From the NCBI RefSeq assembly GCF_008831285.2, contig NC_045141.1, positions 24,661,315 through 24,725,314 on the forward strand: DNA of 64,000 nt, read 5' to 3'. The number at the start of each line of letters is the position of its first letter. The stretch's first letter is position 1. Under the pieces are notes generated by a model, which was not told the origin of the DNA, ran no database searches, and worked only from the letters and a program-made list of their open reading frames with translations. The translations under genes were made by a program, and so were the position numbers. Below, one piece after another: positions 19,303 to 63,009 of this stretch. The DNA comes from Nymphaea colorata. Its lineage: Eukaryota > Streptophyta > Magnoliopsida > Nymphaeales > Nymphaeaceae.

Positions 19303-19340
19303 ACCCACAGCCAGGAAGAACAAGAACAAGAAGTAAAGTC

Positions 19341-36747: not shown

Positions 36748-39039
36748 ATGTCGAGAAGAGGGGACACTGATAATGGTGTGAGGATCGCCTCCGCGGTGGA
36801 GCTCCCCGATAGAGAGCACAACGGCGGCCACCGTCGTTACGATCCGGTGCCGTCGCCTGACAGAGGTACGCCGCCTTCCCATCTCTCGTTTTCTGATCAT
36901 GATCGCTCCTCTTCAGATTCCGATGGAGAGACCTCCCGTCGCGCCTACCGCCGGTGCTCACGGAGTCCGTCTGAGGGCGATCGCCGGGAAACCTTAACCC
37001 GTTACCATAAACCTTCTGTTGCTGCGGATCGGCGCGAAGTCTTAGCTCGTGGGTCTGATGAGAATTTCCGTAACCCTAGTGTGGATGATTGTTATGTTTC
37101 CCCTGCTCGTGGTTCCGGCCGCGGCTCGGGTAGCCCGTATCTGGATGGACGGCGTGAAACCCTAGATCGACATTATGGAAGACGTTCCCCTAGCCCTAAT
37201 TTTCGCGAGCGTGGGAAGACCTTGAGTCGCAGATCGGAACGCCTTTCTCCTAGCTACGAACGGTACGAAACCCAGGCCGCTAGGTCTGGACGTCGTTCCC
37301 GTAGTCCTGGTTTCAGCGACCGTTTTCCTAGCCATGGTCGAAGTGAGAAAGATGATTACTGGTACGAGCAGGGTACGGATAGGAAAGAAAATGGGCGTGG
37401 AAGCCCTACTTCGAGAAAGTTTCATCGTCATGGCGACGGATACAGGAGGCCTTCAAATCAGTCAAGGTTTCTGGATAGGGGGTCTCGATTGTCAGAATCT
37501 GAGGGGGAAGACGAGGATCTCAAGGGATTGAATTTCCATGAGTACAGGCGGCTTAAGCGGCAAAAACTGAGAAAGAAGCTGAAGAATTGCATCTGGAGAG
37601 TGACTCCGAGCCCTCCACCCGACTGGAGGGGAAGATTGGACTCACCGGCTCAGGATGACAAGACAGCTAGTGCATACCAGGACGGAAATTGTGTTGTGGA
37701 TCGAAAGGATGGCTCTTTGGTCGATGGACGTAAAATGGATGCAACGGTTAAAGGGAAGAAGCCGGAGGATACCAAGAAGTCGGCCAGTAACCCCGCAGAT
37801 TCCGATAGTTCGGGTGAGTCCGCTTCTTCATATTCTTCCTCGGAGTCGGACAGAAGCATCTCGCCTCGTGCGGCAAAGCGGAAGAAAGGACAATCTTCTA
37901 GGCGGAAGAGCAGATCTTCCACCAGGAAAAGCAAGAAGAGCAAGTACGATACGGAATCCGACTCCGACGAGTCCTTCAGTTCGACAGATGAATCGAGTGA
38001 CGAGGAGCAGAAGGTTAGAAAGAAGAAGTCCGGAAGCACTTCGTCTCGTAGGCAGCAGTCGAAAAGCAAAAGAGGTAGTCGAGCAACTGGGAGCCACCGG
38101 AGGAGAAGAAGGGGTAGGGATGACAGTTCCGAGAACACTGAAAGCGAGGACGATTCTGAGCCGTCCCGGAAGCAGAAGAAGACGATGAAGGAGAAGAAGT
38201 TGGACGCCGGGTTTAACACGGATGAATCTCTTAGTTTGACAGAGACCTCGGGTGATGAAGTGGAAAAGAAGAGCTCAGGGAGTGTTCGAGATCGACTGCA
38301 GTCGAAAGACGAGAGGAGCAATCGAACAAGTAGGAAGAAGAGGAGGAACAGCAGGGGTAAGGATTCTGATGATACTGGAAGCGAAGGCGATTCTAGTTTT
38401 GATTCCTCCGACGATCAAAGTAAGTCTAAAAAGAAGAAGAGTAAGTCGAAAACATCAATCTCGTCATCTCATTCCAAGAGAAGAAGGACAAGGCACGCTT
38501 CGGATTCCGACACAGCTTCCAAATCAGATGGATCTTCAGATTCAGACTCTGGTGCTCACGAAGAAAAAGAAGCTGAACCAAGAGCAGCCGAGACCGACAG
38601 CGAAGTGCTCAAATTCAAGGAATTGATAGAATCGCAGAAGAAGCCTGCTTCAGCGTTGGACAATGAACCCTTCGTTGGGCCTGCTCCTTTGCCTAAAGCC
38701 GAGGGGCATATCAGCTATGGTGGAGCTCTCCGGCCTGGAGAAGGAGACGCCATTGCTCAGTATGTGCAGCAAGGTAAGCGTATCCCGCGGCGAGGAGAAG
38801 TCGGTCTGACGGCAGAAGAGATTCAGAAGTTCGAGAGCTTGGGCTATGTCATGAGTGGAAGTCGGCATCAACGTATGAATGCTATTCGTATCCGGAAGGA
38901 AAACCAGGTTTACAGTGCAGAAGACAAGCGGGCGCTGGCTATGTTCAATTACGAGGAGAAATCTAAGCGTGAGCACAAGGTCATGTCCGATTTGCAGCGC
39001 CTTGTACAGCGACATATCGACCAGGAGTCCAAGACATGA
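36748..39039 (+). CDS. NKAP/MAS2-like RS-rich nuclear protein, intronless, 763 aa
   Basis: The start at 36748 ([10 protein letters not shown]) is chosen because the frame's earlier ATG (36604) lies upstream of the TATA box. Residues 1 to about 280 are rich in Arg, Ser and Pro with recurring [14 protein letters not shown]-type units. The middle (about 280-620) is a low-complexity Lys/Ser/Asp tract with many SDSD and KKKSKSK blocks, likely phosphorylated. Residues 638-763 form the conserved NKAP/SynMuv C-terminal domain: [40 protein letters not shown], the segment [20 protein letters not shown], then a basic Glu/Lys-rich end. NKAP proteins are nuclear speckle and spliceosome-associated RNA-binding proteins; the Arabidopsis orthologue is MAS2, linked to splicing and rRNA expression. 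The whole CDS is one exon and markedly GC-richer than its surroundings. The product call is firm. Confidence 0.92.
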
Positions 39040-40379: not shown

Positions 40380-43300
40380 ATGGCAACTTCTCCTGCATCG
40401 GCCTTTATCCGTTCCATCTCTCCTCCACATCCGTCTAGTCCTTCTTCTTCATGGTTTTCTTCTTTACATCCCTTTCCATGTGGTGGGATCCTCTTCCAAA
40501 GCCCTTGCCAACTCTCCCATCTCATCTATTCATCCTTCACTACTACGCGGAGCCCACGTTTGTCGCCTTCCACGATCGCAAGGAGGCGCCACCGAGGAAT
40601 TATGTGCTCTTCGACAGTGGCGATTGATCAACTATTTGTCGTTCGGATTCATTATCACAGGTCTGCTCCCATACTCTCTGTGTCCTCTGAGGCGATTCTG
40701 CCACTGTTTGCAGATCTTGATTCTGTCATCGCGTTGATCGGCAGGCCGGACGGGTTGTATGATGGGTGGCAATGTCGTGCCGAGAGTGGCGCTGCTGCGC
40801 AGACGACGCAGGTACCGGAGGTTGGTGAGAGGGGAGAGGAGGAGTTCGGCGTGTTTTGGGACGTCGCGATGAAGGACAAGGATGGCTTCAAGTTCGTCGT
40901 CCACAAAAGCGGTTTAGAGGTTGGAGTTACTTTCGATGAAAGGGAATTTGATAGTTTCTTTTTCTTCTATCCGTTTCGAATCTGTAAACGATAAGCAAGG
41001 GAGGTCGATGGTTTTATCTTATGGTGTTTCTGTGTTCTTATGGACGTGAATCATGCTAGTTTAAGGCGTGCTGTTGTAGCAATGATTCCATTCATGGGTA
41101 GAAATAGAAATTCTCCATTTGCCGATCGAGATGTTAGAGGATAGAATGTCCCGTCGTTTCTTATATTTTTTGGGGTCCTTCAGGCACGTTTGTTGCCCCT
41201 TTCCTCTTCGTTGCCTCCGACGTTCTCGACAGGCTTGCGGTTAATTTCCACTCAGTGTGGTATAGCAGGTGGAGACGCATGGGTTTTACCCTAGTGAATT
41301 CCTTGAGTGCCGTTTTATCTATGTGGGTGAATAACACTCTGACCACCACTTAGTAGAATTGTTTTTAGCCGATCTATTCGCCCTAAATGCTGTTGATCTA
41401 GAGCAACATTGGTGCTGGATTTTTTTTTTTTTTCATGAGGTTCACCTAAGAATCGAGGAAACGGAAGACTGTGTCTGGGTAACTTTCTAATGGCAACTGA
41501 GGGAGCACCGGGCCTTGTCATCACTCACGTCGTCCCGCTCTTATGGAAAAATTTGAAGCCATTGAAAATCCATCGTTACACCGTTAACCGTTACAGGAGG
41601 CTTCTGTCCCGAGGGCCTGAATCCTATGCTTTTTCCCGTTCCAGCATATCTATCCGATGTCAACGTTTCCTTTGGTTGTCCAACGATTAGAATAATAACT
41701 TTCGTGAATGAAGTTTATGGACTTGGTTTTCTCCATCTGGTAAGGACTCACAACCTTTGGGAAGGAATTGGATAAGAACTCACAACATTAGGGGGCAATT
41801 GACAATGGGGTATATAAGAAAGTTCGGAATTTTTTTCTTTTTGGGTGACACTCTCATGTTATTCTTTTTAAAAATATTAAGTTGCATGTCGTGCATGTGT
41901 CGAATGACTACACATGGTCAGGTACACAAAGCCTGAAAGTAGTGAGTTTTATTACTACGCATATAATTGGAAACTAGCAATCAATTTTTATTTTTGTATG
42001 ATATAATATGCGCATGCATCTTCATGTTCGTACATATGGAAAATACAGTGTCCATTTTGTGCGTACATTGAAAAATAAGAAATGTTGCTATTGGCCGTTT
42101 TAGTGTCATCAATAGGTGCAAACCATGGTGCTTACACCTTGTGTGCCGGTCAGGATTTTTATTAGCATATCATGGTTTAATTGCAATACTATCAAAATAC
42201 AAAGGCAGATACATCATAAGAATTCCATATTTGGTGCTCATTACTACATTATCTACCTTTAACATATGTTGGGAAGTGGCTTCCTCTAAACATTGCCAAA
42301 TTTAGCCAGGTGCAAAACGAAAGAATAATTTTCTTCACAAAGTTCTAGTAATTTGTTCTGTTAACAAAATATATACTCCTTTTGTGCAGCCACATTCGAG
42401 GTTCACATGGTATTCTGAAAATATTTTCATTTAGCATATGATTAACTCGATAATTTCACTAAAAAATGTGAAAAAAAAAACACAAATGCATAACTATAGA
42501 CTAAAAAAAAACTCAAATGCATAACTATAGACTCTCTCTCCCACTGTCATCATGCTCCAATGCATAGTTAAGATCTCTCTCTCTCTCTCTCTCTCTCTGT
42601 GATACCCATATATGCATATTTGTGTCTGTGTGTTAGTAAAACCTTAGTTTTGGTTTTTTATAAGTTTGAATATCATGGCAGGACTGCAAAGGATCTGCAT
42701 CGGTTGATCATACAGATGTGTGGGTAATTTCTGATGTGCATGATGTGTTCCCAGAAAGACCAGATTTATTTTCATTTATGAAGGTGATTAATTTTTTTTC
42801 TTTTCTGTTCTGTTCGGTTTATGTAAAAACATGTCATTTAATGGGGCTATGCTTTTGTTCTGCATATTTCTTCTCTATCACAACCCTTAACAGCTAGTAT
42901 ACTTTAATTTAAGAAAGTTTCTGTTGTGATGTTAATCCTAAAGCATAGCTTCTTCCATCGAATATCAGCTTAGCTTTTATCTTGGACAAGGTGTCAATAA
43001 TTCTCCACAGTTATTTGCTAGAAGATCATCAGATTGATTGTTATAGTATCAAACTTTCTATCTATCAGTCAGACATTATGTTTCTTAATATAGAAGAAGT
43101 CTGTATAAGGTATGACTGTTGTGGTCAGATTTTTTATCCTTGATATATCATAGGCATACAACTAAAGAAGATCAATTGATCCTTTCACAGTTGTCCATTA
43201 AGATAGCATTAGCTATATAATTGCTTTCTAATTGCACAAGTGAAAAAAATCATTAATCATCCTTTGAAATACTATTCTTGTCCAATTTACATGATTAACT

Positions 43301-44678
43301 TCCTTCTTCTATTTATCTGCATCTAAGCTACTTTGTCAGTATGCATCCCATACCATCGCCAAACCATCCATTTGAATTTTCTTCTGCATGCAGGATAATC
43401 TGTCCTTTTCTAGGGCATTTTGGGTTACAAAGTCTCTCATTGCCTGGAATATGTGTGTCAACAATGCCTGCTATTACATTTATGCTAGTAGAAGGGCCAA
43501 GCTACAGCTCACACGTGATGGAGTTGAAGGTTAGCATTTGAAACAATTGGAATATCTCATTTATATAGCTTAAGCAAACACAATAGTTGATTGCTTTAGA
43601 AACTTTGTGGTTTTTCTTCATAAAACTGTAAATTACAAAATAAAATCAGTTGAGTGTTGCATGATTCTAAAGTATTCAATGGCTTGTCTGAATCATTTAA
43701 CTTCTATCTCGATCTTCAAATGTTTGTTGTGCTATAGTAACTTGAGCATGACATGTTTTATTTCTTCAATATCAGGTCATGATACAAGAATACGTCTTGA
43801 GCCAGTTGAAGGCAAGCTTCCTTTGAATGTAAGCTTTCAATTTTTATTCTGTTGCTGTAGGTTGATTTGCCCAACTTTTGCTTTACAAGAATGATCTGAT
43901 GCTTAACTTTGTATATCAACAGTCCGACTAAAATTATTTAGTGGTTGCACTCAGGTTGCCACCAAATTTCCTCATATTGCAGATTATAAAGCTTTCAAAA
44001 TTACATCTGAGGTGGATGTTGAGGAACTTCTCAAAGCGCAGTTAGCAATCATATGCTTGGACGGTACATGGATTTTGGTACCTTGGCTGTGTCTGTCTTC
44101 TACTTTTTGACTTCTTTATTGCCTTGGCTATTTTCTTGTAGCTTTTCAAGTCTTCACCACATTACAGCTATCACAATAAACACTTTCTTCTAATTATGAT
44201 GGATAAACACAAGAAACACGTTTTTTTTTAAAAAATGCGAAAAAAACGTAATGAATTAAATGTCCATTTAAACTAAAAAAAACACGTTTTTTTGAAAAAA
44301 ACGTTAAAAATAAAAAAAAACACGTTTTTCACTTTTTTCATTTTTTTCAGTTTTTTTAATGCCAAACAGTTTTTTTTTTCATTTTCTATTTTTCATTTGT
44401 TGCAAATCTACTTATTTTTTGTTGTTTCTGTTATTAGTTTCTCAGTTATTTTATTTTTTTCCATTTTTAGTTTTTTAAAATTTTTAAAAATTTACGGTAT
44501 TTTTTCCCTTTTTTTCAAGCTTGCCGTATTATACCAGAGAAAAACCTCGCCGTTTTAAAACTCCGAGTCGTTATTTGTGACTATGGATAAAAGTCAAACC
44601 TAGATAATATTAACTTCATTCCTCTTCTGTCATCTGTTGCTTTTCTCTTTGTTGCTTTTCTCTTTAATCACTTATATA

Positions 44679-44736
<58 letters not shown>

Positions 44737-47700
44737 GCTTTATTCAGGTTCTATTTTCTTCTGCAGCTGGAAATAGCAGAAAAATTGCTCTTTTAATGTC
44801 ATTCTAGCTAGCAAACAGCAAAGTTGTATAAGTGGTCCAACAAATACATCCCAATCAAGTGCATGCATTTAAGTGGTTGTTGCTTTTGTAGCCAATGGAA
44901 GGTTAATAAATTCCACTGGTCTGCAGTCACCGTGGATCCTAGATGACCTATCTTTTTATGATGGAACGTTGTTGCTTTTGTAGCCAATGGAAGGTTAGTG
45001 AATGCAACTGGCCTGCAGTTACCAGGGGTCCTCGATGACCTATTCTCGTATGAAGGACCGCTTGGTGCTGTCATCGCTAAAGACACTGTGGCTCTTTATC
45101 TTTGGGCACCAACAGCACAGGTGGAGAAGTTTTACCTCTATAATAATTCTCGTGTAGTTAATGAGGATAGCTCTTTAATGAGGATAGCTCTTTTTAGATT
45201 TATTTGACATTTCTGAATTCTATTTCATGCTTCAGGCTGTGCAGGCCTATATATTTGGTAGAGCATCAGACGACATTCCACTTGAAACTGTAGACCTTGT
45301 AGAGATGAATGGTGTATGGTTTGCTAGTGGACCAAGGACATGGGAGGGCTGTTACTATGTCTATAAACTTACTGTATTCCACTCAAGTACTATGAAAATA
45401 GAAACTTGTTTTGTCAATGATCCATATGCGAAGGGGTATGCCATTTCATATCTCTGAATCTTTTCAATGAACTCCCATCATATCTTTCAGAGCACATTCG
45501 TGCTTTTGATTATTGGTGCAGACTCTCAGCAGATGGAAAAAAGACGTTAATTGTCAATCTCAACTCTGATAACTTGAAGCCAGCTGGATGGGATAGATTG
45601 GCAGAAGAAAAACCTAACCTTTCATCTTTTTCTGATATCAGTATCTATGAGTTGCATATCAGAGATTTTAGGTACATTACTCTACTTTTGTTTGTAATAC
45701 ACCATTGCATACAGTTAGTACCTAATGTGTTACAAAATATTATCTAAGATATTCTTTGAATCGCGTAGTGCTAATGACAAAACTGTGAATCTTGATCTCC
45801 GAGGGGGTTACCTTGCTTTTACATTACAGGTAGCACCCTTAACATCTACCCCACTAATTAAGTTCTTTTCTTTTCCCATTTTACAGATTTATTATTTTTT
45901 AGCTCCTGTGCTCTACATAGCAAGATTGACATGTGCTTTCTTCTCCACATACAGATATAAATATCTTATTCCTGCTGAACAGTTGCCATAAGATGGTCAT
46001 GTTCCTTTTAGTGCTTTGCATGTACAAATTGCGGCTGACTATATTCCATGTTTTAATTAGAAAATAGTGGCCCTTGTATTTTTAATTTTAGGCTTCGAGC
46101 CTTATTTGACTTCGTGCTTCATGGTTATTCTTATATTGAAAATGCAAACTCTAAAATACATTCCAATTTGCAGTGGATGTTACTTGTTTTGGTAATGCAA
46201 TATCTGATAATTATTGACTCTACATATTTTGTAGGATTCAGCTGGTTTTCTTCACTTGAACAGATTGTCCAAGGCAGGTCTTACACACATTCATCTACTT
46301 CCAAGCTTTCATTTTGCTGGTGTTGATGATAATAAGAAGAAATGGAAGCATCTAGGTACTCCTTGGTCCTGCTAATTTAAGCACAAAAAGTGGGTTCATT
46401 ATTATTCTTCCATGTAGCTTTTGTTTTCCAAAATTCCATTAAGGTTGTTGTAGTATTCATTATATGAGTGGCAAACCAACAAGGTAGCAGTTGAAGGAAA
46501 TTCTTTGGGTATCTATTTGTTCATAGCAAAGGCAGTTTAGCATCACTTTTTTCTAATTTGGATTCTGGAATACCCAAAAAAAAAGGAGGGCAGGTGATTG
46601 ATATTATTTTACTGTGATATGTGTTGGTTTTGTGGAGTATTCTGTTACTCGTTGCATCTATTTAATACAGTGCAACTTAGATTTTGGATAATCTATAAAC
46701 AAAACTCAAAAATCCAGTATGTTCTTGAATTCACCAAATATATTTTCCCCTCACAGGTGTAATTTTGTTGCTTTTGTGATCGCGGAAGGTTTATCAATGT
46801 CAATGCCTCTTGTCCAGTTATTCGAGTTCAAGGAGACTGAGTCATGTGCTTACTTTTCTTATTTGTTTCTTTTGTAGATGAAGAGAGATTAGCTTCTCTA
46901 CCTCCAGATTCAGAGTTGCAACAAGCTCATGTTGTGGCCATCCAGGAGGAAGATGGATATAACTGGGGGTATTCATCCTCTAAGATTTTCCCTTTATAAT
47001 GAAGAACCTGGCATGTGGTATTCTGAGACCGGTAATAGGACTTGCCCCATTTTTGCCCATTGTAAAGTGGCAGAGCTTTAGCAACTCTGCTATGGTCCAC
47101 ATTGTATAGGACTGGGGGCCCACTATGGGTTCCCTTCATTCAGCAAGCTTTAGCAACTCTGCTATGGTCCACTTAGTGAAGCTTCTACAAAAGCTCAAAA
47201 TTATTATGGCTTGGATTAGTTGCTTATGCACAGTCAAAGTTGTCAATGCATGCTTATGAGATGTTTTGGAACTCTTACTGTTCAAGGTACAATCCTGTTC
47301 TCTGGGGGGTTCCTAAAGGAAGCTATGCCAGCAACCCTGATGGACCATTGCGAACATTGGAGTTCAGAAAAATGGTTCAGGTCAGTGTTGTCTGTCTTGT
47401 TTCAGTGTTCCTTTATCAATTTAGTATTAATGTTTTTTAATAATGGCAGGCACTTAATCACATTGGTTTGCGTGTTGTGCTGGATGTTGTGTATAATCAC
47501 GTTCATGGAAGTGGTCCACATGACAATTTCTCTGTTCTTGACAAGGTTAGCATCAGATATAGAGCTTTGATTAGTAAAGCATGTCTCTTAAAGAAAGTTC
47601 CTTCATTTTCAGGGATTATTAGTTTTGCTGTAGCATGCCTAGCTGAAAGCTAGGTTTGTCAAAATGACCTGACCTGGCAGTTGATGACAAAACATCTGCT

Positions 47701-50700
47701 ATTATTAGTTGGGCCTAACTCCTTAAAAATGGCTGGCTTGCTTTTTGGATGTAAGACGAGTATTAATTTTTGCATGTTCATCTCCTAGGTGACTAGCAAG
47801 TTGCTAAAGAGGGTTTGTTGGATGTTAATTCATGTTTCAGTTATGTGCCTAGCCATTTCAGGCTTTCGGCTCCATATCCTATTTTAAGAGGTCATATTTG
47901 ATATGCCTCCAGAAGTTCATGTTCTATAGTTTCTAGAGTGGAGTTTATCTGTCTTTTGTGAAGGGGCACATAATTGTTGCCATATGCCAATGATTGGAAG
48001 CACTAGTTTCCATTAGCATTATAAATTTGACTTGTCCAGGAGTTTTATTCCTTCCTTGGATGTGAGTTCTAAAATAGGTTGTTCCCGGGTATTACCTTCG
48101 AAGAAATGCTGATGGGCACATTGAGCATAGTACATGCACAAACAATACAGCTAGTGAACATTACATGGTTGAACGCTTAATTATTGACGATCTTCTTCAC
48201 TGGGCACTTCAATACAAGGTAACTAACTAAGCTATCTTATTTGGGTTTTCTGCTTTGTGATGGATGCTGATGACCTTCGTTTAACTCTAGCTACTGTTAC
48301 CCATCATCTTTATGCCTTTTAGGCATAAAAACAAGTTGAAGAAACTTGATAATTCATTTTCTATTCTGTGACCTGATCTCCTTCTTCATAGACTTTGGTA
48401 TTAGGAAATGGTCCCATCTACCTATTAACTAGCAAGTAGTTATCGGCTGATATGGCTTCTTTATAATTTCTTCTTTTGGTATGGAAAACTCGGGGACCAT
48501 TAGTTTTCTCCTTCTTTGTCTCTGATGTCGATCAACACAGAAATCTCTTTCTTGTTATATCATCATACAAGAAGCGAAGAACCTAAACATGATGAATTGC
48601 ATACCTGCAGAGCCCGTTGCCAGATGATAGGTCAGAGTATCTTGGATGTCTGGTTTTTCTTATCAGGTTTCTTTTGGAAACATTCTGTATATAGTTTTCA
48701 GAGTCATGTAATCAGACATATACACATTTGTTAATCTGTTTTTGTTGTACCTTTCATCATATATATTTAATGACATTTTGATAAAGTGTTGGCGCTATAT
48801 CCTGCTAGAGCAGATACAGAGAGACACTGTTACTTATAACGTTATAAAGTTTAATCTTCCTGATGATATCTTAATTTTGAATAATTACTGAGTTCTTTAC
48901 ATTTCCAATTTAACCGTCATATTCTCCTTCTTTTGTTAGGTTGATGGATTCCGGTTTGACCTGATGGGCCACATCATGAAAAGTACCATGGTAGTGCTTC
49001 TTTCTAGTTGATGTCAAGCATCTTTCTATCTCAATCCACCATAAAAATCTGATGCATGTTGTCTGCAATGAAGGTCCAATCTTGTCTCATATTACCTTCC
49101 AGATTTTAACTTTTTAAATATAATTGAGGGAAATTCTGATCAAACATATATTTCACTTGCATGAGGCGGCGTATGTCATCTCTTGTTTAACTAAAACAAA
49201 CTACCACACAGCTATTCCCGAGTGCGGCCTAAGGTTCTTGAATCTTATCAGCCTTCACACCTCCGGGGGCATTTGAGCTCTGGACACTAGTTACCACAGG
49301 ATATTTGTGACAGTACTCTATCCAGTGGCTAAGGCAAGGTGCCAGAGTTTTGAAGGCTTATGTGCTTCTTTCTTTTACTAAAAAAACCTGTACAAATATT
49401 TTTTCCCAGATGCCCCTTCAAGGGTCTGGAGGATGACTATATATAGCGTCTTACATAACTGTGGAAGTTGCATATTACAAGTGTACAACCCCCTGCACTC
49501 ATCTGCCAGGCATGTGGTACTCACCTGCCAGGTCTTCTTTGGGTGAAGAGGATGGCCAGAAGCTTCTTCCTGATCAATTTGTTGCTTTCCACAAAAAATA
49601 TCAAAATGTCTTAGGCTGGTGAACCATATGAAAGGTGACTTTATTTCTAAAGGACTTCAATGTTTCTATCTGTCTGGCAGTATGAATATTTCTTACGAGG
49701 ATTTCAAAATTTTATTTCTTGTGTCTTTTGTTAAAAATGAATATTGTCATATGACATTTTTAGAAATTTTAAAAATAAACTAAGAAAGTAGAAAACCAAT
49801 GCCTGTTAGAACAGCACCAGCCAAAGTGTCATGGCTGATACTGACAAGCTTTTCTGAATTTTTTGCGGTATTACTGAGTATTTATGAAAAATTGCTAGTA
49901 CAAGATATTCTGAAGAAAATGCAGAGTTGGTGTCTGATGCCATCGTGACATATCGTATTAGTCATATTGCAAAAGTGGAAGCTCATTTATTTGATTATTT
50001 CTATCTGATCCCTGTGGGCACCTTTAATACATGCTACATGAATGTTGTTCTTTGCAGTGGTATAAACATGCTTCTTTTATGGCATAGCTATTAAAGCAAT
50101 TAGAACGAATTGGCTCTTATTGTGGAATTGCTGTATGAATTTCGTTGTGTTATTGTGTTTCTTTACTTCTGCTGGCACAACAGAATTAGTGCAAAATATG
50201 GAAATATTGCTTCCTCTCAGCCTTTAGTTTCACTTAAGTGAAAGATTAGTCGGTAGGTCGAGATAAAATTATCCTAGTTTAGCAATGACATAAATGCATT
50301 ACATTTAGAATTATCCACTAAATATGCACTGTTGAAGCTTTGAAGGTTATGATAGATAGAGGGTACTATATATAGGGTGCTATCTTAAGTGTTTAAGTGT
50401 AGTCCTGGACCATTGACAGGTTGAAACCTCAAACATGGCTGCTGGTGATATATCAGCCACATAACGAAGTTGGCGCTGGATGGCAAGATTTTTAGCACTT
50501 CCAAAAGTTTGAGATGTAATCGTCTTACACTTTTGAACTTGTCTCTATTTACTGGAAAGTAGGTGTATTTGAACACCCTCAAACTGTATCTAGGATCTAA
50601 TTTCACTTTGGGAGACATGATCAATGTATATGCAGCCTGGGTGTGAGGGATCTTTGAATATATTGCCAAAATCTATTTAGTAAGGAAGTTTTTACACCTC

Positions 50701-53700
50701 CTGTCACTGAACAGTTTTAATATCTAAGTCCATTCTAATGTCAAGAATTTGAATTTTATTTTTGTTGCCTGCAATTCTCATTGGAATGTTTGGAAGAATG
50801 TACTTAACTGGATATAGCCATTCTTCATTAATTGTTGTTGGATGCCAATAATCATGGCTGCTGTACTTCAGTGATAGGAAGTAGTTTCAGGGCATTAGTG
50901 TTTTTCAGTTAATATGTTTGGACAAAAAGCAATTATTGTGCTTTACATTATAAGGGTTCATTAGTGAAACTTCTGATAAATATCCATAGTACAAAATGTA
51001 ACCCTACCAAGGAAAGACTGAAGGAGTTTTTCTTTTAGAACTTCAACTTTTCCATCTTCTCCTTAGCATAGTTTATTTGAATTGGGGTTCTGACTGATGG
51101 TGACAGAAATATTGCTATTGCTGAAATTTTTCTGTTATGTAGGTGGAGGAAGAAAAGGGAAATCTTATAGTATAGGTACAAGTTTTGGATTAGTCCAGTT
51201 TCAACCTGGTAGTGATTTGGAATTGAGTATCATTCAGGTGATGAACCAACTCTCATGTGGGGCATTCGGATGATTGGCCAAATTAGCATTAGTGTTTGCT
51301 ATGATTTGAAGCGCTGATTTGTTGTTTAACAAGTCCAGTTTTGAAGCTACATTTTGAGGAATGCAGAAAAACTTGAAGTTTGCATTTAAACATTTACGCT
51401 TCCAAGGTGTCAACATTTAAACACAATACAGTGTAATCAGTTGTAACGTGCATGGTGCATTCTTATGCTTGATGAAATGATCTTTTACAACTGCTTTTGT
51501 TGGTTTACAGTTGAAGGCAAGAGAAAGGTTGAACAGTTTGTCCAAGGATAATGATGGGGTAGATGGCTCAAAAATATACATGTAAAAAGAAATAGTGCTT
51601 GTGTTTTTCTTCTTAAAATCATCAAATATGCTACTTATTTGTACAAGTTAGAATCTTTATATAACATTATCTCTCTCTCTCTCTCTCTCTCTCGCTCTCA
51701 TAAAGATATGGAGAAGGTTGGGACTTTGGTGAAGTTTCTAAGAATGCTCGTGGAACAAATGCGTCTCAGTTTAATATGTGTGGAACTGGTATTGGGAGGT
51801 TAGATCTCGCCTTCCCTGTGAGACATAAACTACTTTATCTATGTAAAAGTGTCCTTTGTTTTTTTGTCTAGACAGATTTCTTTTCTCCTCCTTCCCTCTT
51901 ATTATATTATGCACTGATGTTTCATTTTCTCATATCAAGTAAATATGTAAAAATATGGCAGACTCCTTTGTGTGGTACTATGCCATGTTTATAAATTTGA
52001 ACATTGTAATGCTTTTAGTTATCCCAGTTGTTTCTGTTCATCTTATTACATCTTGCTTCAAGCTCATCTTACTTTTGAGTGAATTATTGAATGATATTTC
52101 AAATAGTGTTCAATATTAATCAGTAGCTTTCTGATGTGGTTTAATGAATCAGTTATTGTTGCAACAGTTTATGGGGGATGCAATTGCTACCTTTTGTGCT
52201 CTTATGTAATATTCTAATCGATGCTGTTATTATGATAGTACCCTATTGGGAGAAATTTGGATGCACAAGAACGTTACACGTGATATTGTATAATAAAATT
52301 CATAAAATTGTCTTTATAAGATTAGCATGATAAGGGAAAAAAGGTCGAGATCATAGTTGATGAATATACTTAATTACATGAAGTTCTCATTTTTACCTTA
52401 TGACAAGGAGAAATTTAGATACTCTGCAATTGATTGAATATTGAAATTTGAAGTGGTTTCAGACAGATCATGATAGACATGAGCTCCTGTTTGTGTCAGG
52501 TTTTAGTTTGATTTAGCGTTCTCTAGTCTTCCCATCTTGTTGCTTCTAAAGGCTGTCCGTCTGTTTTATGGTTCCCTGGAAGCATTCTTCAAACCCAGAA
52601 AGAATTAGCTATACAATGTAGCTATGTCTATGGTTATTGATTGATCGATTGTAAGCTTTTTTTAGAATTAAGAGTGGAGAACATTGTTGACTTCATCATA
52701 TATGGGTCCTACAAGTACCCAATTCAATTGAGATTTTATTTCTGAAGTAGGACTCCTACTACTTGAAACAACATCACTCAAGCATTTACTGCTGAAGGAC
52801 AATTTTTTTTGAATGACTTGCCCCAAAAAGCATTTCTGATATAAGGCTATGTGTATTTTATGGACCTGGTTGTCCTGGACTTGCTAACAATCAACTACAC
52901 ATAATTTCTTATTGGGTTTATACGACAAATATCCTGTCTTCATGATAATAGGATTTCACGGTGTCTTGGAGGGGCCATCCAAGTATGCCAGTCCATGCGC
53001 CTTCTATAGATGCTCAAGTTACATTTTTCATGTGGCCTTACTAAATAAAATGTCTTATTCTTATTTTGTTGTTCTGTTGTGCCCTTTGTAGACACTTTAT
53101 GTTGCCTGTGGTTCTTAATTGATTTCTAGTCCTGTCAAAGTCAGAAACTGTACTTATCCAAGCGTATCTTTTTATGTACGTAAAAAATTTTGATTGTATC
53201 TAATATGAAGTATTTTCTGTATGCACCTTTTGCTGGATTTCATGAGAAAAAAGAAAAACACTAAAAGGAGCTCGTTTATCCTCTTGAAATTGTCCTTTTT
53301 ATGTAATTGCATTCTATTTTGACATCTGGACAATTGAAAGCAAACTATTTGCTAATTTACGTTGGCATGCTCTCCCTGTAACAAAGTTATTGTAATATAG
53401 TATACACAAGTAATTTCCATTTGAAGTGATGTGGCATAACTTAGTAAATTACTATATGTGTGTGTCTGTATTACGTACATATGTGGTTACCTATGTAGCT
53501 TTGCTCGTATTATGCTTGTCTATAGAAAATATATACTGTAATATAACATTGACAAATAGTCTGTTTTAGAGCTTGTTTCATGCAAAAACGTGAATTGGTT
53601 TAAATTTTTGGATCATCCCTGAAAGATGGAGAATTTTTCCCACATCTTTAACTACTCCATGTGTTGTCATGAAATATGGATTATTCACACCACTGTATTT

Positions 53701-56700
53701 TAAAGTTGAACTTTTACTGTCTTTGATATGTATATAATTGGATATATCTCATTTACACTTCTGTAGCTTTAATGATCGAATTCGAGATGCAATACTTGGT
53801 GGATCTCCATTTGGTCCTGTTATTCAACAAGGTTTCTCGACAGGCTTGTTGCTGCAGGTAAATTTTATGTTTAGAGAAATGGTGGAAAAGAGGTTTAGTC
53901 CTTTAAACCTATGAGACTTAGTTGGGTCTTGCTATTTTTTTGTGGTGTGTCTTTTTCTGCATTACTGATCAGAATTGTAGTTTTAGCTTTTCAACTTTTT
54001 GGTAAGCAAGGCATGAGGAAGAACCTCTAAAGTGTTAATCATGATAAATAGCACATTTTCCTATGGGTAGACCTAGGTGCACTGTTCCTCGCATTATAAT
54101 ATCACTGTTACATTTGGGGATTTTAAATTTTTAACAGTAAATGTGTGACAGTTAAAGGTATTAACATGATTCCATGCTGAAATACCAACATGATTATATG
54201 CCAAAGTTTTGTTGTGATTATAGTTGGACTTTATGAAATACTTTTTCTATTCAAAATAGTAAGAAAATGCAGAAATTAATATGGTTGTCTGTTGCAACTT
54301 AACTAATTTTTTCTTTTTTCTTTTTTGTAGCCCAATGAGCATGTACTTGAGTCAGAGAATTCAGATCACATTCTTGCAGTCCTAAAAGATCACATTCAGG
54401 TTATTCCTGCATAATTTTCACATTTTCTTAGTGACATTTATTTATTTTACTTATTTCATGTTTATATGTTATTCCATGATTTATGAATCTATTCCAGGTG
54501 CTTCACGTAGAACCTAAGTCACGAAAATTGCTTAACCATGTTGTAGTTCTATGCTATGTCACATGGGTGCAGGGTGCGTGTGCGGATGCGGCAAGTTTAA
54601 AAAAAAAAATTGGGTGCGGGCGCGGCAAGGGCATATAGATATATCATATATGTATACGTATTATATAAGTAATTTTATTTGTCTATATTGTTAATTTTTT
54701 TTTATCAAGATTACCTTTATCTCATCCAAAATTCAAAGTTTTATTAAATAAAATGCGAGGAGGAAAGAGAAAACAAGAAGAAAAAAGATGAAGGAAAAGA
54801 TAGGAGAAGGAAAAAATGAAAAAAAAAAAGAAAAGAAAAGAGAAAACAATTTCAAAAATGTGTTAATACACTGATATTTTTATATCTGGTTTTTCACTTT
54901 GCAACTTAATAATTTGAATACTTCCTGGATTTTCTTGTTGGGGGCCATTCATTTAAAATTCTACTAAGAAAGGCACCTTTTATATATTATTGCAAGATAA
55001 AGAGAGAAAGAAGATGCCAACCTAGCGGATCAACTACATAAAATTCTGTATTTTGCAGCTTATGACTCTGAGGTCAAACATACTAAGCAGTAAGTGGGGC
55101 ATTCTCATTCCATTTTCCCAGGTCAATTGTTTTTTTTCAGCATCATGATCTCATAGGCAAAGGGAGATGATGAAGTTAGTTAAATAATGACAGTAGAAAA
55201 ATTCTATCTATGAAGGTTGGTAGCTATCTTGAGTTAATAAAGCAGACATTTTTACTTAAACCTCTTTTGGCAAGTCTCTTAAGACTTGGGAAGTACCATG
55301 TTACTGTGTGCATAAAATTTTGCGCTTTCCTCCTATCTTCCACTAGTTGTTCCAAATACTTGCTCTTTAAACTGCTGTCTGTTCTCAATTTGGACTGATC
55401 AGTGAAGTTGGGGAAGCATGATTTGTCATTTGATTGGTTCAAGTTTAATTTAACTTGAATAATATATATCGAAGAATTTCATCACGCAGTCAAAAGTACT
55501 AGTGTACCCTAGGGAGCACACTTGGAGCACTGTTGGAACTTGGAACTAACTTGCTCTGTATGAGAAAAGGAAAGAAATAAAAGAACAGGAATGGTGAGCA
55601 AGAAATGGGAAAGGTGGGGGTTTTGAGGTCTTCCTATCTAGCCAACACGTTAGAAAATAAATGAACAAAAATGATAGTTCTAGAAATTAGAGTTCAAAAT
55701 TGGACAAGTATACTCGTTTTTTTTAGGCTGTTAGGTGCCCCTAGGCCTGCTTACCAAGCATTAACAAGTATTCTCAAGCTGTTGCCAAACAAGAAAAGGT
55801 GATTTTGGTTGAGCGAAAGGCAGACTGGCAGAAGACAGGTACAAAAAGATGTTTCTTCATCTCCTCATCAAACATTTCTCTTTTCCTGTCACAATGAATT
55901 TGGATGGTATCCATATTGGGTCAGATGGGCTCCAATAGCATCCTCAAATTTTTTTTCTAGTTGGTTAGGATATAAAAAATCAATTTTCTCAACGTTGTGA
56001 CATTAGATTACTGCTGGTCAAAGCATGTAAAGTGTCATACATGTCCATGACAATAATGTAAGTATGCATTTTTTATGGCTTCTTAGGTCTATAAGTGAAT
56101 TTCAGAGTAAGCTTGAAAGGCTGAATACTAAATGGCCTCTCCATTTCTTTATCAGGTTGGGTTGGCTGCAAATTTGAGGGACTTTGTTTTCACAAATCAT
56201 GAGGGAAAAGCAGTAAGGCACCAATTTTTTTGGAAAAATTTCTTGTGCAATTTTCTTTTCTTATGCAAAAATATTTCTTGCCTTGATATTATTGGCATCA
56301 ATATTGAATCACAAACTTTTTCCTTTTTGGTTCCTTTGACCGTGTGAATATTATTTTGGCATTTGAGTTGATTTTGATTAGGAAGGGCTATAAATTACAA
56401 ATCCCTAGTAGCTGGGAATGAATCCCATTATGTTTACAGTTTACTATATTATTATTATTCTGCTTTCTATCTATGACTGTCGCAGGTCAACATTTCATAA
56501 CTTGGATTCCATGCAGTAACTAGACTTGGTAACCTATATAACACATGCCGGTCAATTCTCTGTCCATGCCTGTGTTGATGTGATGTGGGTGCGGATGTGG
56601 ATGCGACAGCAATGTGGTGCCAGATGTGGTCAGTGTGCATCTAGCGCCTGGTACTCGGACATTGGCTCGAGGCATTTCCTCTACCCCTTCTTACCCTGAA

Positions 56701-59700
56701 AAAAGCTGATGCGGTCAATGGCACCAGGCCACCTTCATCCTCTTCTTATTTAAAAAAGTTGAAAAGAAAACTGAATGAAAATGTGAATGGAGAGTATCAA
56801 GAATATTCCCGCCACCTTCCTCCTGTAGTACTCCTTTCTTTGGCAGCAATAAACCTCCTTTCTTTGGTGATTGGTGATTGTCGATTTCCAATTCCTCTCT
56901 TTGGTGATCTTCACCGTGTCAACAGCCAATCCATCTATTTGACATTGCAGACCTCTTCTCTTCGGTGATTGGCAATGACCAAATGGATTGCTGATGACAG
57001 GCAACTGATTGAGCCCAACACTTTGAAAGTTATATATATATAGTGATGGTCTTTGATAAACCACCACGTAGAAGCCTACTTTTGTCTTTATATACCTTTA
57101 AAACCAAATTGCTATAAAAGTATTTCACATATCTTGTCCTTGACAGCTTTAAGTGTTAGGAATCCTCTTTGTTAATGTCACCAGATTAGCACCTGGCTTG
57201 GCCCACATTTTGTTTTGCATGCTACATTATCCTCTTCGGTAATCTGAAAGTTGAAGCAGAAAAGGAGGAAAAGGATGGTCTTGAAGAACCTATGGCCTCA
57301 TCTACTTTTTATTTCCAATACAACCCTGTCTATATCTAGTGATGTCTAGATCAGTTTATAGGCCAACTAAGTATATGCCATCAATTGACCTCTATGTAGT
57401 TAACAGTTTAAGATACTGTAAAAGAGGAGGGGACACATACAAGGGTTCATCTGCATATAGCTTTTGATGTTTATCGTTCAATACATAGTGGACAAATCAT
57501 TCCAAGAAAGGGGTTATGCTTGTTTACTTTGTTTTCCTTTTCACAATTTAATGTGCTTATTTAATTCTTTGCCTTTCTGCTTATGCTTTCATGCAGGTGA
57601 AAGGGTCTGAAGTTTTAACTCATGATGGAGTACCAGTTGCATTTGCTCTTTCCCCGACAGAAACAGTAAGAATTTTTGATGCAGTATTAGTCTATATAGT
57701 TGGATCTGAATCTTATAGAGGATTTTACGTTACCTTTATTTATTTTATTTAGTTTCCATTTGGACCCATTATGATTCTTTCCCATGTCCAGGATCCATTG
57801 ATCCAAGTTACTTAGAAACCCCATTTAAAAGGGCGTGTGATTCTGCAGATTATTGAGGAGCGATCAATTGAGTTAGCCCTGATTTCCTCTGTTCTTTATG
57901 CTCCTTCTTCATTACTTTCATTCTATTTGCTTTCTACTTCTGCTTGAAGTGCACTTCCATGGGGATTAGAGTAAGGGCCTCTAATCACTGCATCAATTTT
58001 GCTGCTAAACTTCGTTTTTCTTTCCATCGTGCTGTTTAACATCATTTTGTGCAAGGTGATGGTCTGTACTTTGTGAGATGGCAATTGTGTTAGAATGCTA
58101 ACAGGATAATTTACTTAATGTCTAACCATATTATTTTCTTGAGAAACTTGTGCTCACTGAAGCATGGATTGAATATGTCCATTACTGAAACCCTGCACAC
58201 ATAGTTCTTGTTTTATACTAGAAAGTTAGTTAGCTTGAAAACTAGCACGCACATCAAGTCAACCATATTGGATGGGAACAAGGGAAGTAGCAATGAAGGA
58301 ATTGAGAATATATCTTTATGCATTCCAAACGTGTCCATAATGAAAAGTAGAAGTAAAACTGGATATTTCAAGATGTGCACAGTTTTCATTATATGTACCA
58401 ACTACCAACCATAGATTTCTGATTGATATTTTATAGTTAGAAAATTACAGTAAACTATGTTCAATCTCTTGGCTTAAAAAGGAGATCTTTTCAGTGACTC
58501 TGATGTTTCTTGTCTCTCTTAATCTCTTGAAGGTGAATTATGTGTCTGCTCATGACAATGAGACCTTATTTGATGCTATAAGTTTGAAGGTACTTATTCT
58601 TGAAGTTCTCAATAGCATTTTCTATTTATTTTATCATAGTTTCTGATAAGTCTCTTGCATGTAGACTAGCGTGGAGATTTCCGTCAGTGATAGGTGCAGA
58701 CTAAATCATCTTGCAACCAGCTTGGTAGCCCTTTCTCAGGTTTTTGTCCTCTTAACTGTTGTAGTTCTTACATGCATTATGTTTGATCTTTTGCTTCAGC
58801 AGAGAGTGTTCTGCTGCTTCATCTATCTTCTAGATGTCCAGACCTGCGACAAAAAATACACTGGAGTGTTCCTTGCTTCTCGTACTTCTGCCCCATCTTC
58901 TTCTCTTACTGTCATTTGATTCGGCCATGAAATGAGATGACACCCATAAAATTGAACTACCCAGCGTCAGTCAACAAAGAAGCAAATAGTGCTCCAGAAA
59001 TATGAAAAATATCCACATGACATCAATCATTTTTCCAGTCACATGATTCCAGAACTCATTCATGCCCCAAAAATAAAACTCCACGACACACCTTTTCAGC
59101 ACATTTGATGATGATCTATTCCCAGAACACCAGTCATCAACTGATTCAACATAACTTACATGGCTGATCTCTTGATCCATGCATTGCAACGGCGACCAAT
59201 CAATTCATGATTGATCAAGATGTTGCTTGCTATTGCGCGATAATGAGAAGAGGCCTCTGCTACTTTATTATGCAGATCATAGCCACAAATAGTACGATAT
59301 TTTCGAATATCACAATATCAATGAAAAAATGAAGAAAAAAGAAAAAATGGAAAAAACATTAAAAATCAATGCATTGATATTTTATCATGATTTTTTCATT
59401 AATTTTTTTATTTCACTTTTTGTTTTCATTTTTTTCAACTTTTATTCTACTGTTTTATTTGCTCTTGTTTTAGGTATATAAAGTTTTAATGTGACCCCTA
59501 GATGAAATACAATGCTTATTACTTTATCATTTTTATCAGTTTAACTAGATGTTTTTTTATGTCTTCTTATTAGTTTCTCATTTGTTGTATTTTTACCTAA
59601 CATTTTCATTTTTTATTTATCTCAAAAATTTTCAAGATTTCCCAATAAGGCAACTTTGCCAAAGAACGATATTTGTGGCTATGCTTGAGATGCACTAGGA

Positions 59701-62700
59701 AGAGGAGCTAGAAGGTGATATGGCCCGATAGCTAGGGTACAAGATGATGGTCAAAATCCTTATTGAAAAAGATGTCTGGAGGTCTCAAAGTCGGTTTGGC
59801 TCTGATACCATGTACAAACCGATACAGAGGAGAACAAAAAATCATCTCTCTGTTAACCCTAATATCTACTTAAATAGTGATTAGTAAGAAATTATAGAAA
59901 GGTCCACCTTGTTTTAGTAAATTGAGAAATACTAAAACTATGATAAAATTGCTGCTAACTACCTAAAGATATCTCAACAATAACAATTAAGAATTCAGTT
60001 TAAAAACAAATGATGAAGGCTGCATGGCTATGTCTTTTCCTACAAGCATATGAATGATTGTTGATAGTGTTTATTTTTACTTAATGGTTCTGAAGCATTA
60101 GCATATAAAGAATCTCTTCCTTTCTTTAAAGAAATGACCATAAATAATTGAACTAAAAATCAGCAACTTGTTGAAACACAGAGAACAAAAATAAGTCAGA
60201 TTATGTGAAATCACAATAAATCTGGAGTCGGAAGGAAGAGATGACCTTTTCCTTGCCTCATTTCCCCATGGCAGTGAGATAGTTCAGTGATAAATGGAGA
60301 TGATAAAAGTTTTGAAGATGGGAGGAAAGAATATTAACTTGTCGCGTTGGATAGTTTGGTGAAATGATAGAGCAAACTGAATCGGAAACTGCACATGTAC
60401 ATGTTGAATGCGCAACAAGTCCTTTAACTTAGGTGGTGAGAGTACAAGGGAGTACAAGTAGACAAAATTTCCTGATTCTGCCACACTCCTTTTCATATTG
60501 GGAGTGTGAAGATCTCAAATGTGTATCTTAGGAACTAGATTCAGAAATTACTGTACCTAGAACTTTAGTAAAAACATCAAGAAGCTGGACTTCAACAAGA
60601 ACACAGGTAGGCCCAAAGCTATGTTTTTCATGAACTAAATGGCATCATTGTCAAGGTCTCTCATTTGCTGACCATCAGCAAGCATGATGTTGATGAGATA
60701 ATATTCTAGTTACTGTGCTTCATGCAGGTGATAAAAGCTGCAAGAAATTAATCATTCGAATTGCAAATCTATTTCTATACTTAGACGAGGAATGTTTCGT
60801 ATGACTTGGGGATAAACATATTTTATGTCCTTGAGCATGATTTAGAACCTTCTTATGCTTGTAGTCTGGGCTTCTCCTGGCATTCTCTTCCAGTTCATGA
60901 GTGGCATATATTATTTTGTAAATATTAACAATATGATTCTAATTAGGGGATACCTTTTTTCCACTCTGGTGATGAGATGCTGCGGTCCAAATCACTTGAT
61001 CGGGATTCTTACAACTCTGGTGATTGGTTCAACAGGCAAGATCTAACTGTCTTGTGTACTAGATTGTGTTCGTAAGTTTACGTTTTCTTGAATCTCCAAT
61101 GCAGGATTGTCTAGATATGCTTTATAGTTTTGTTTATTTATTTATTTTTTCCTGTCATTATTCTGTTTGGTGAATCCCTTGGACACTCTATTGTCCATAG
61201 GTTTGAGGAATGCCTAAAACTCCTTATATGGTCTATATGTTGGTTCAAAATGGAAGAGAGTAGTTTGAACTTTGAACAGGCTGTTGTTTTTCCTGCACAA
61301 TGCTATCTATGGTGGTTTTATTATTAATCAGAGAGCAACAGGAGTATTGGCCAACCAATATCAGATATCAGTGAGTAATTTCCCGAGAACCATTGAAATC
61401 TATAATAGGCTATGCTGCATTTTGTAAACCTTAAGCTGGAACGATATTTACTTTCCTGAGAAAGATCTTAAGAGTTTTTAATGTTTATGAGCATCTTCCT
61501 TGACATGAAAATTGCCTGCACTGATGCATTTTAACATGCACTGGAATTTAATTGATATCAGGTTTTTGGATCTGAATTTTTATTCCAGATTGGATTTCAG
61601 CTACGAATCAAACAATTGGGGTATTGGCCTCCCTCCGAAAGAGAAAAATGAAAGGAACTGGCCACTGTGAGTAGTTGCATATTTGTGTCATTCTTTTCCC
61701 TTTTCTCTGAAAAAATGTCTCACTGCTCTGTGTGCTTGTAGTTGGCATATTGTCTGTTTTTTTGCTCAAATATTTTGCTCTCAAGGTTGGATGTTTGATA
61801 TCCATCTATCTTAGCTTTTATCCAAATTGTTGTTGATTTAGGATTAAATCACGGCTAGCAAATGCATCATTTAAGCCTCAGAAAATTCATATTCTTTCTG
61901 CGGTAGAAAATTTTGAGGATGTTCTGAGGATAAGATATTCTTCACCACTTTTTCGCTTGAGGACAGCAAACGAAATTCAGGTGAGATCCCTTTTTTGCTT
62001 TGCACATATTCAATGCAGAAAGTACAAGCTTTTTTTACTTATGAATGTTGTTATGAAGAACCATCCTTCATTAGCTGTCATGAAGCCAAGGTAATGTTTG
62101 CTTTATATTTAGTTGTGTACTAAGCAAGAAAATGTCTAAATGTAAAGCATAGATAATGAGACTTTCTATGATTTTGACATTTTTTGTGGAATATGAAATT
62201 GCTTCTGTTTCCAAACATCCAAAACCTGTTCCTTCATAAAGTGAAGGCAGTTAGTATTTTATCCTATATTTTCTACATGATGACATGCCAGGCAACAATG
62301 GAGACATGGACGATTACTTGTCCAGAAAGTCTCTTTCTTTTGCAAGATAAACAGTTCTACTTTCTAAGCGGACATTAACCTAGCGTAATTGTTCAGGAAA
62401 GAGTTCGCTTTCACAACTGCGGTCCATCATGGGTTCGAGGTGTTATTGTGATGAGCATTGAAGATGGATACAGCGGCATGCCGGGAATGACTCAAATGGA
62501 TCCCTTGTATGTTACACATTCATTTGGTTGTTTTATCTTTTGTTCTGGTACAGTGGTGCATACAAGCACAAGTGCGTTATTCGTGATAATCATCATAGAA
62601 CTGTGCCATAGGGCCTGCAATCTGATGAATGATGGACTAAGTTTACAGGGTTATAGAAGTTCCTCCTTGTTTTGATAACTGATGTCTGCTTTTGCAGTGG

Positions 62701-63009
62701 TTTTGTGTTCTGACATTCTATGATGCTCCAGGTATTCGTTTATTGTCATTGTCTTCAATGCGTGCCCTTCCAATGCCTCTTTTTCAATTCCTTCATTGAG
62801 AAGAAAGAAACTTGAACTACATCCACTGCAGGTGAAATTTTTTCTATTTGATAATATGCCCACGTAGGAGCAATGCACTAAGAGGTTTCAATATGCAGTT
62901 GATGTCTTCTGACAAGGTTGTCAAGAATTCATTTTATGAAGCAACGAGTGGCAGCTTCAGTATACCGGCAAGAACAACTTCTGTATTTGTTGAAGTCCGT
63001 GCTATTTGA
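40380..63009 (+). CDS. LDA: Limit dextrinase (type I pullulanase), plastid, 30 exons, with an extra CBM41-like module
   Basis: Hydrolyses alpha-1,6 branches of starch and limit dextrins in plastids. Exons: 40380-40660, 40745-40919, 42682-42783, 43394-43529, 43776-43828, 43955-44063, 44984-45120, 45236-45435, 45522-45671, 45769-45829, 46235-46355, 46878-46968, 47287-47380, 47450-47545, 48078-48218, 48940-48990, 51511-51581, 51706-51798, 53767-53857, 54331-54399, 56156-56212, 57597-57665, 58533-58589, 58665-58739, 60947-61035, 61589-61666, 61842-61980, 62397-62506, 62732-62831, 62899-63009. They total 3207 nt in one frame: 1068 aa, against roughly 900-965 for plant enzymes I know. Order: Ser/Pro/Arg-rich transit peptide (1 to about 75), CBM41-like module (about 86-186), pullulanase N domain (187 to about 285), CBM48 (about 290-400), GH13 barrel, C-terminal domain to 1068. 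Barrel motifs are intact: YNWGYNP, DVVYNH (582-587), GFRFDLMGH with nucleophile D656, YGEGW with acid/base E693, and VSAHDN with D824. Confidence 0.93.
40661..40744 (+). other. LDA: Limit dextrinase intron 1: 84 nt, in frame, no stop (exitron-like)
   Basis: The intron runs from gtctgctccc to gatcggcag. It is a multiple of three (28 codons) and open in the coding frame, so an unspliced message would insert 28 residues between HYHR and PDG of the CBM41-like module. Its removal restores the family consensus exactly, which is why I call it an intron. Confidence 0.8.
42472..42533. repeat. 31-bp tandem duplication in limit dextrinase intron 2
   Basis: Two adjacent units, each nine A followed by cacaaatgcataactatagact (copy 1) or ctcaaatgcataactatagact (copy 2), differ by one base. 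A (CT)n run at about 42571-42598 follows. Confidence 0.9.
44163..44587. mobile_element. AT-rich inverted-end element in limit dextrinase intron 6
   Basis: The left end (agctatcacaataaac) and the reverse complement of the right end (ccatagtcacaaataac) are imperfectly related and resemble the perfect ends of the element at 59278-59683. The interior repeats 'cacgttttttt' blocks and shares 'tattagtttctca' with that element. It has no coding capacity. Confidence 0.35.
44682..44731. repeat. (TA)n microsatellite in limit dextrinase intron 6
   Basis: About 50 bp of TA, about 250 bp upstream of exon 7. Confidence 0.95.
44876..44967 (+). pseudogene. Duplicated decoy copy of limit dextrinase exon 7 (5' half)
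   Basis: The 92-bp segment directly before the real exon 7 is a diverged copy of that exon's acceptor and first 76 bases (copy acceptor ...gcttttgtag|CCAATGG at 44892). Its translation parallels the real exon: [20 protein letters not shown] against [20 protein letters not shown]. It has no donor of its own. Reading on from it meets an in-frame TAG, the acceptor TAG of the true exon at 44981-44983, so use of this acceptor would truncate the protein. Confidence 0.85.
45159..45192. repeat. 17-bp tandem duplication in limit dextrinase intron 7
   Basis: The unit taatgaggatagctctt occurs twice with no spacer, in the 115-nt intron between exons 7 and 8. Confidence 0.95.
47074..47172. repeat. 27-bp direct repeat in limit dextrinase intron 12
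   Basis: The word agctttagcaactctgctatggtccac occurs perfectly at 47074-47100 and 47146-47172, with 45 bp between. Confidence 0.9.
48991..51510 (+). other. Limit dextrinase intron 16 (2.5 kb, largest)
   Basis: Lies between the nucleophile exon (GFRFDLMGH) and the exon before the acid/base glutamate. It is AT-rich, with an unrecognised minus-strand frame at 50385-50669 that may be part of an old repeat. No recognised gene is nested here. Introns 18 (51799-53766), 20 (54400-56155) and 24 (58740-60946) are similarly long and gene-free. Confidence 0.75.
51671..51705 (+). repeat. (CT)n microsatellite serving as polypyrimidine tract of exon 18
   Basis: About 22 bp of CT, then cgctctcataaag, end directly at the acceptor of the exon carrying YGEGW (51706). 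The repeat occupies the position of the polypyrimidine tract, so length changes could affect splicing. Confidence 0.8.
59278..59683. mobile_element. 406-bp element with perfect 14-bp inverted ends in limit dextrinase intron 24
   Basis: The left end catagccacaaata (59278-59291) is perfectly complementary to the right end tatttgtggctatg (59670-59683). The interior is AT-rich with long A-runs on the left and matching T-runs on the right, so it can fold back. It has no coding capacity. The target-site duplication is unclear. Confidence 0.6.
61036..61588 (+). other. LDA: GC-AG intron (limit dextrinase intron 25)
   Basis: The only way to keep the conserved WFNRLDFSY junction in frame is AAC AG|gcaaga ... 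ttccag|A TTG, that is, a GC donor. GC-AG introns are a known minor class of U2 introns in plants, and the rest of the donor (AG|gcaag) fits their strong consensus. Confidence 0.85.

Follow-up and report, generated by a model that had tools for sequence, protein, structure and literature searches.

The window analysed here is a 64,000-nucleotide stretch of the Nymphaea colorata genome (contig NC_045141.1, positions 24,661,315 to 24,725,314, forward strand) and it carries a limit dextrinase gene (Table 1). The predicted gene model encodes exactly 1068 amino acids, the length given for the enzyme in an earlier note that was made from the sequence alone. That note had placed exon 1 at 40380-40660, exon 2 at 40745-40919 and exon 3 at 42682-42783, and its coordinates and junctions proved correct: the three exons are followed by GT donors, exons 2 and 3 are preceded by AG acceptors, and the reading frame of exons 1 to 3 runs on into exon 4, which starts at 43394. 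The peptides that it quoted from these exons are present in the joined translation. All introns of the 30-exon model are of the GT-AG type, with the sole exception of the intron after exon 25, which opens with GC instead of GT at 61036-61037; both the reading frame and the alignment to barley limit dextrinase need this junction. When the bases of exons 1 to 3 were simply shuffled 5,000 times, no shuffled sequence stayed open throughout. We compared the protein with its own genome (408 Mb, 783 contigs, with telomere repeats of the plant type) in a search that scored the best candidates only; 28 matches were reported, all of them inside the limit dextrinase locus, and no second limit dextrinase copy was seen among them.

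The first 75 residues contain 18 serines and 7 arginines and neither aspartate nor glutamate, a composition suggesting that they are probably a chloroplast transit peptide. Intron 1 is 84 nt long, a multiple of three, and its retention would insert 28 residues in frame inside the CBM41 module described below. With the intron kept, the module scored 36.1 bits in Pfam, down from 49.7; this drop supports the splice, and read-through of intron 1 as the main form was ruled out on the same ground. Skipping of exon 2, or of exons 2 and 3 together, breaks the frame, while skipping of exon 3 alone keeps it. A plastid-targeted product that begins in exon 1 would thus normally hold most of the module. 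Further downstream, a 92-nt tandem duplication was noticed at 44876-45059. It repeats the end of an intron together with the beginning of exon 7, and the two copies are 83% identical and spaced by exactly 92 nt. The upstream copy has an AG acceptor too and resembles an exon start that was duplicated and has since decayed.

The body of the enzyme is that of a pullulanase. TIGR02103 (pullulanase-type alpha-1,6-glucosidase), a model that itself starts at the N2 domain, matched residues 189-1066 with 1186.4 bits against a cut-off of 697.6. Within this body, Pfam recognised Pullulanase N2 (PF17967, residues 192-304, E 5.7e-33), CBM48 (PF02922, 22.6 bits against a cut-off of 22.4) and, in the full protein, the pullulanase C-terminal domain PF11852. 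The best solved structure was barley limit dextrinase (4J3W, 2Y4S), with 1269.9 bits; PMC9911869 names 4J3W as the barley enzyme. The barley enzyme shares the N2, CBM48, GH13 and C domains with 63% identity over 862 columns, and it can be aligned only from residue 191/192 of the window protein. The alignment of 2Y4S begins at its residue 6, upstream of which the window gene adds about 90 CBM41-derived residues and a linker. PMC9911869 also gives cassava pullulanase four domains, N, CBM48, catalytic and C. The statement in the earlier note that cereal enzymes lack CBM41 is borne out by barley, whose structure is known, and the cassava enzyme as printed lacks it too. Judged by its sequence, the limit dextrinase of the window should cut alpha-1,6 branches as the barley enzyme does.

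Table 1. Features of the limit dextrinase gene, in positions of the window
Feature	Position	Strand	Basis
Whole limit dextrinase gene, 30 exons	40380..63009	+	GH13 catalytic and C-terminal domains included
Exon 1, aa 1-75, probable chloroplast transit peptide	40380..40604	+	composition
CBM41/PUD first part, end of exon 1, from aa 88	40641..40660	+	PF03714; exon end precedes GT donor
Intron 1, 84 nt, stop-free, in frame	40661..40744	+	reading frame; PUD score loss if kept
Exon 2, CBM41 core (PDGLYDGW ... FGVFWDV ... FVVHK)	40745..40919	+	Pfam and gene model
Codons 105-107 (Arg, Ala, Glu), sites of two bacterial binding-face aromatics	40776..40784	+	alignment; PulA Tyr78/Trp80
Exon 3 first part, CBM41 end (DVWVIS strand, to aa 175)	42682..42750	+	Pfam and gene model
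Exon 3 second part, linker towards N2	42751..42783	+	Trp-to-Trp spacing CBM41-N2 = 30
Exon 4, start of Pullulanase N2 domain (aa 192-304, into exon 7)	43394..43529	+	PF17967; barley alignment begins here
CBM48, aa 311-396, exons 7-8	45058..45430	+	PF02922

The module encoded by exons 1 to 3

Ahead of the pullulanase body, whose N2 domain starts at residue 192, Pfam recognised PUD/CBM41 (PF03714) at residues 88-175. This profile search on the joined exons, which the earlier note had proposed as a check, was significant: against a gathering cut-off of 25 bits, the module presented alone scored 49.7 bits (E 7e-13), and the score was 45.4 bits (E 1.5e-11) when the first 570 residues were searched and 44.3 bits (E 3.5e-11) with the full protein. 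A CBM41 profile that we built from bacterial copies matched the module with 39.0 bits and a domain E-value of 5e-14, which refers to a search of one protein. The module also matched the isolated CBM41 structure 2J71 (E 0.0023), which we take to be the CBM41 of Thermotoga maritima pullulanase, and the HYHRxDGxYDGW strand and VWxxxxVxxxF end of that structure align to it.

Bacterial relatives were collected by a profile scan of genome contigs with a three-row seed (the window enzyme, barley limit dextrinase and PulA). The scan gave at least 587 stretches, at least 530 of which encode relatives, and the best 80 loci of these were analysed. With the module alone as phmmer query, 15 bacterial frames were matched at E <=0.01 among the best 80 of at least 530 relatives, the top match being locus L039 with E 1.1e-21 over three repeats. 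A chance profile match was ruled out by the Pfam scores far above the cut-off, by the bacterial profile and by the conserved junction with N2 that is described below. We conclude that the module of exons 1 to 3 is a true CBM41/PUD homologue. A six-frame search of the plant's own genome with the PUD profile gave no match and missed the limit dextrinase locus itself, in our reading because the domain is split over three exons.

Bacterial relatives and the descent of the module

With our CBM41 profile, 34 copies were detected, spread over 16 of the best 80 loci (of at least 530): 10 in four Acidobacteriota loci, 2 in L080, an unplaced MAG, and 22 in 11 Micromonospora loci, these last being near-copies, so that the 34 are not independent. 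Ten of the best 80 loci were scanned with Pfam, and the order PUD-N2-CBM48 was found in six of them (the four Acidobacteriota, one Micromonospora and L080), that is, in 6 of 6 of the CBM41-bearing loci scanned. The order CBM41, N2, CBM48, GH13 and C, which the earlier note had given for bacterial type I pullulanases, is the order that we found in the window enzyme. PulA (PDB 2FGZ series, which we take to be the Klebsiella enzyme) also has CBM41 (there called N1), N2 and the body in this order. The Acidobacteriota pullulanases (L039, L049, L064 and L083) have two or three CBM41 copies each, placed, as in the window, directly ahead of N2 and CBM48, and by eye most of these copies show the FGxxxDV and HYxRxD motifs. 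In the other 4 of the 10 Pfam-scanned loci, X25 replaces PUD (two Chloroflexota, two Pseudomonadota). These four relatives of plant limit dextrinase (L006, L009, L023 and L030) thus carry X25 where others have CBM41, suggesting that the N-terminal module was swapped between lineages before a conserved N2-CBM48 body.

The junction was measured as the distance between the final conserved Trp in CBM41 and the first one in N2. This spacing is 30 in the window and 30 in 12 of the 14 bacterial loci measured (8 Micromonospora and 4 Acidobacteriota), the exceptions being L025 with 29 and L080 with 27. Two further loci of the 16, outside the automatic 14, gave 30 by eye, and the corresponding span of PulA is nearly equal in length, at 29. 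The conserved junction argues that CBM41 and N2 descended as one unit.

By identity of the catalytic region, the nearest group among the best 80 of at least 530 loci was that of Chloroflexota MAGs, with up to 61%; the two of this group scanned with Pfam (L006 and L009, Anaerolineae) have X25, not CBM41, before N2. In a tree of the catalytic region (295 columns, 83 rows), the window and barley enzymes grouped with support of 100/100 and stood beside the four Acidobacteriota with 94/38, and plants and Acidobacteriota lay inside a clade with Chloroflexota (100/97). In a tree from N2 to the C-terminus (871 columns; 33 rows, namely 31 hand-chosen loci of the 80 and the two plants), the plants again stood beside the four Acidobacteriota, with 88/94. 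Both trees have midpoint roots, with algae left out, and the support for the Acidobacteriota-plant pairing is modest, below the tool's starred level in both. PUD was found in 4 of 149 sampled genomes of Acidobacteriota, the phylum of L049, whose own genome is among the four, and in 4 of 151 sampled genomes of Chloroflexota, the phylum of L006. Given the modest tree support and the rarity of PUD in both phyla, we would claim bacterial inheritance of the architecture and name no donor phylum. A review (PMC12448838) cites work in which the green lineage acquired its pullulanase from bacteria; against this, PMC12711439 questions many claims of transfer into plants. The best reading of our data is that the module was inherited together with the bacterial gene ancestral to plant limit dextrinases.

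One contig among the relatives (L058) is filed as Stenotrophomonas maltophilia, and its pullulanase region is almost identical to that of Microbacterium, with an end branch of 0.0087; it is perhaps a contamination of the S. maltophilia assembly.

Binding face and possible role of the module

We compared the binding face with the 34 bacterial copies, counting positions from the Trp of YDGW (Trp102 in the window). At +3, 33 of the 34 have Tyr, His or Phe and the window has Arg105; at +5, 33 have Trp, Phe or Tyr and the window has Glu107. The sole exception at both positions is the first copy of L080, and thus the loss of these aromatics is not unique to the plant. A Lys conserved in 33 of the 34 copies corresponds to Glu152, and the Asp that follows it by five residues in 30 copies corresponds to Ser157. 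A third Trp column (23 of 34) corresponds to Gln116, although the alignment is less secure in this part of the module. The scaffold tells another story: six columns are invariant in all 34 copies, and the window keeps five of them (His91, Trp102, Gly129, Asp153 and Trp166) and has Glu for Asp in the sixth. As we read the alignment, the module preserves the CBM41 scaffold and no longer has the usual binding face.

Known CBM41 domains differ from the window in the same way. PulA has Tyr78, Trp80, Trp95, Lys133 and Asp138 (chain numbering), which we take to be its sugar-binding residues; their counterparts in the window are Arg, Glu, Gln, Glu and Ser. Tyr78 and Trp80 were paired from the printed alignment and Trp95, Lys133 and Asp138 by eye and spacing. 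By eye, all ten Acidobacteriota copies have both binding-face aromatics that the window lacks. The two Trp after YDGW in 2J71 are unmatched in the window, and so, by eye, is a later Trp. The earlier note had proposed a retained ancestral glucan-binding module. Its ancestral part is upheld by the domain order, the 30-residue junction and the trees; its glucan-binding part sits badly with the substitution of five binding-type positions (Arg105, Glu107, Gln116, Glu152 and Ser157), which makes canonical starch binding unlikely. The module is better described as CBM41-derived and is unlikely to bind starch in the canonical manner.

We consider it likely that the gene encodes a plastid-targeted limit dextrinase with a bacterially inherited, CBM41-derived N-terminus, which lost canonical binding and may have been kept as a cap or contact surface. 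The enzyme would probably be targeted to plastids, where its mature N-terminus would be the domain encoded by exons 1 to 3. This domain would have arrived with the bacterial gene ancestral to plant limit dextrinases, have been lost in the barley and cassava lineages and have been kept in the lineage of the window. The N2-CBM48-GH13-C body would still cut alpha-1,6 branches. The domain itself would no longer grip glucan canonically, because the binding aromatics and their polar partners became Arg, Glu, Glu, Ser and Gln, and it would most likely survive in folded form, capping the N-terminal side of the enzyme or offering a contact surface there, for the sake of stability or protein contacts. 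A more specific proposal, which we regard as conceivable and rather doubtful, is that the bacterial CBM41 has been kept intact, folded and translated since its acquisition, with a binding face that is now charged, because the domain acquired a further function in the plastid; it might, for example, contact a partner protein, assemble with other starch enzymes or control debranching. The starch debranching of plants is carried out partly by an enzyme thought to be bacterial in origin. A bacterial N-terminal module in a plant gene would mark the transferred architecture and would help to date its loss in barley- and cassava-type enzymes, and it would offer a natural test of what role a starch-binding module has once its binding face is gone.

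The functional claim of the earlier note, that the module still works as an alpha-glucan-binding CBM41 by means of other residues and binds starch granules differently, could draw on the well-kept scaffold and on other aromatics such as Phe131 and Trp132 in the FGVFWDV stretch; moreover, Janecek and co-workers are said to have proposed, in 2017, CBM41 groups that lack the usual aromatic motif. Yet five binding-type positions differ, two of them now being acidic (that of Gln116 is uncertain in alignment), and we think this reading unlikely. Neither do we put much trust in the possibility that exons 1 to 3 are decaying outside the main transcript and that the enzyme starts elsewhere. An in-frame ATG does lie at 43388 in intron 3, just ahead of exon 4, and the binding face is lost, but exons 1 to 3 are stop-free with usual splice sites and exon 1 is the only transit-peptide-like start that we noticed; decay is thus very improbable. 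A later separate transfer or exon shuffling could also have placed a bacterial CBM41 before a plant limit dextrinase. The tree of CBM41 modules alone, in which the window joined no group and had a long branch of 2.41, leaves room for such a graft. The colinear order, the bacterial-like 30-residue junction, the three introns, of which two lie within the module and the third behind it, and a divergence so great that the best identity is 31% over 84 columns, unlike a recent graft, make it extremely improbable.

The strongest challenge to a special history of the window lineage is that early plants in general, and even many seed plants, have the module, which would be seldom named because annotation ends with N2 and CBM48. 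We incline somewhat against this and take it seriously; other early plant lineages may well carry the module without its having been remarked on. TIGR02103 has its start at N2. Domain charts of plant limit dextrinases that begin there may be incomplete. A 2014 paper (PMC4236520) ascribes PUD or DUF3372 to the pullulanases found in land plants, in green and red algae and in bacteria, making no assignment of which has which, and the review PMC7410926 counts just five eukaryotes in which CBM41 was known, namely four algae plus Ostreococcus tauri, termed a fungus there. In the literature that we searched, the partial coverage of which makes this weak evidence of absence, we found no report of a land-plant limit dextrinase that has CBM41. 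As for Ostreococcus, the genus belongs to the green algae. Against a general occurrence stand barley and the four-domain enzyme of cassava, which are without the module. In addition, the review PMC6243121 states that plant debranching enzymes carry at least a CBM48 and names, for starch-biosynthesis enzymes, four starch-binding families, CBM20, 45, 48 and 53.

Other reading frames in the window

Two further reading frames were noticed in the window. Upstream of the limit dextrinase gene, at 36517-39039, lies a long frame of 840 amino acids (stop to stop). PF06047, the C-terminal domain of NKAP, matches it with 160.4 bits, and a long part of the frame is rich in Arg and Ser. On the minus strand, at 18499-19338, a 279-aa frame shows C2H2 zinc fingers (PF13912) in two stretches, and its DLNLPAP sequence resembles an EAR repressor motif.
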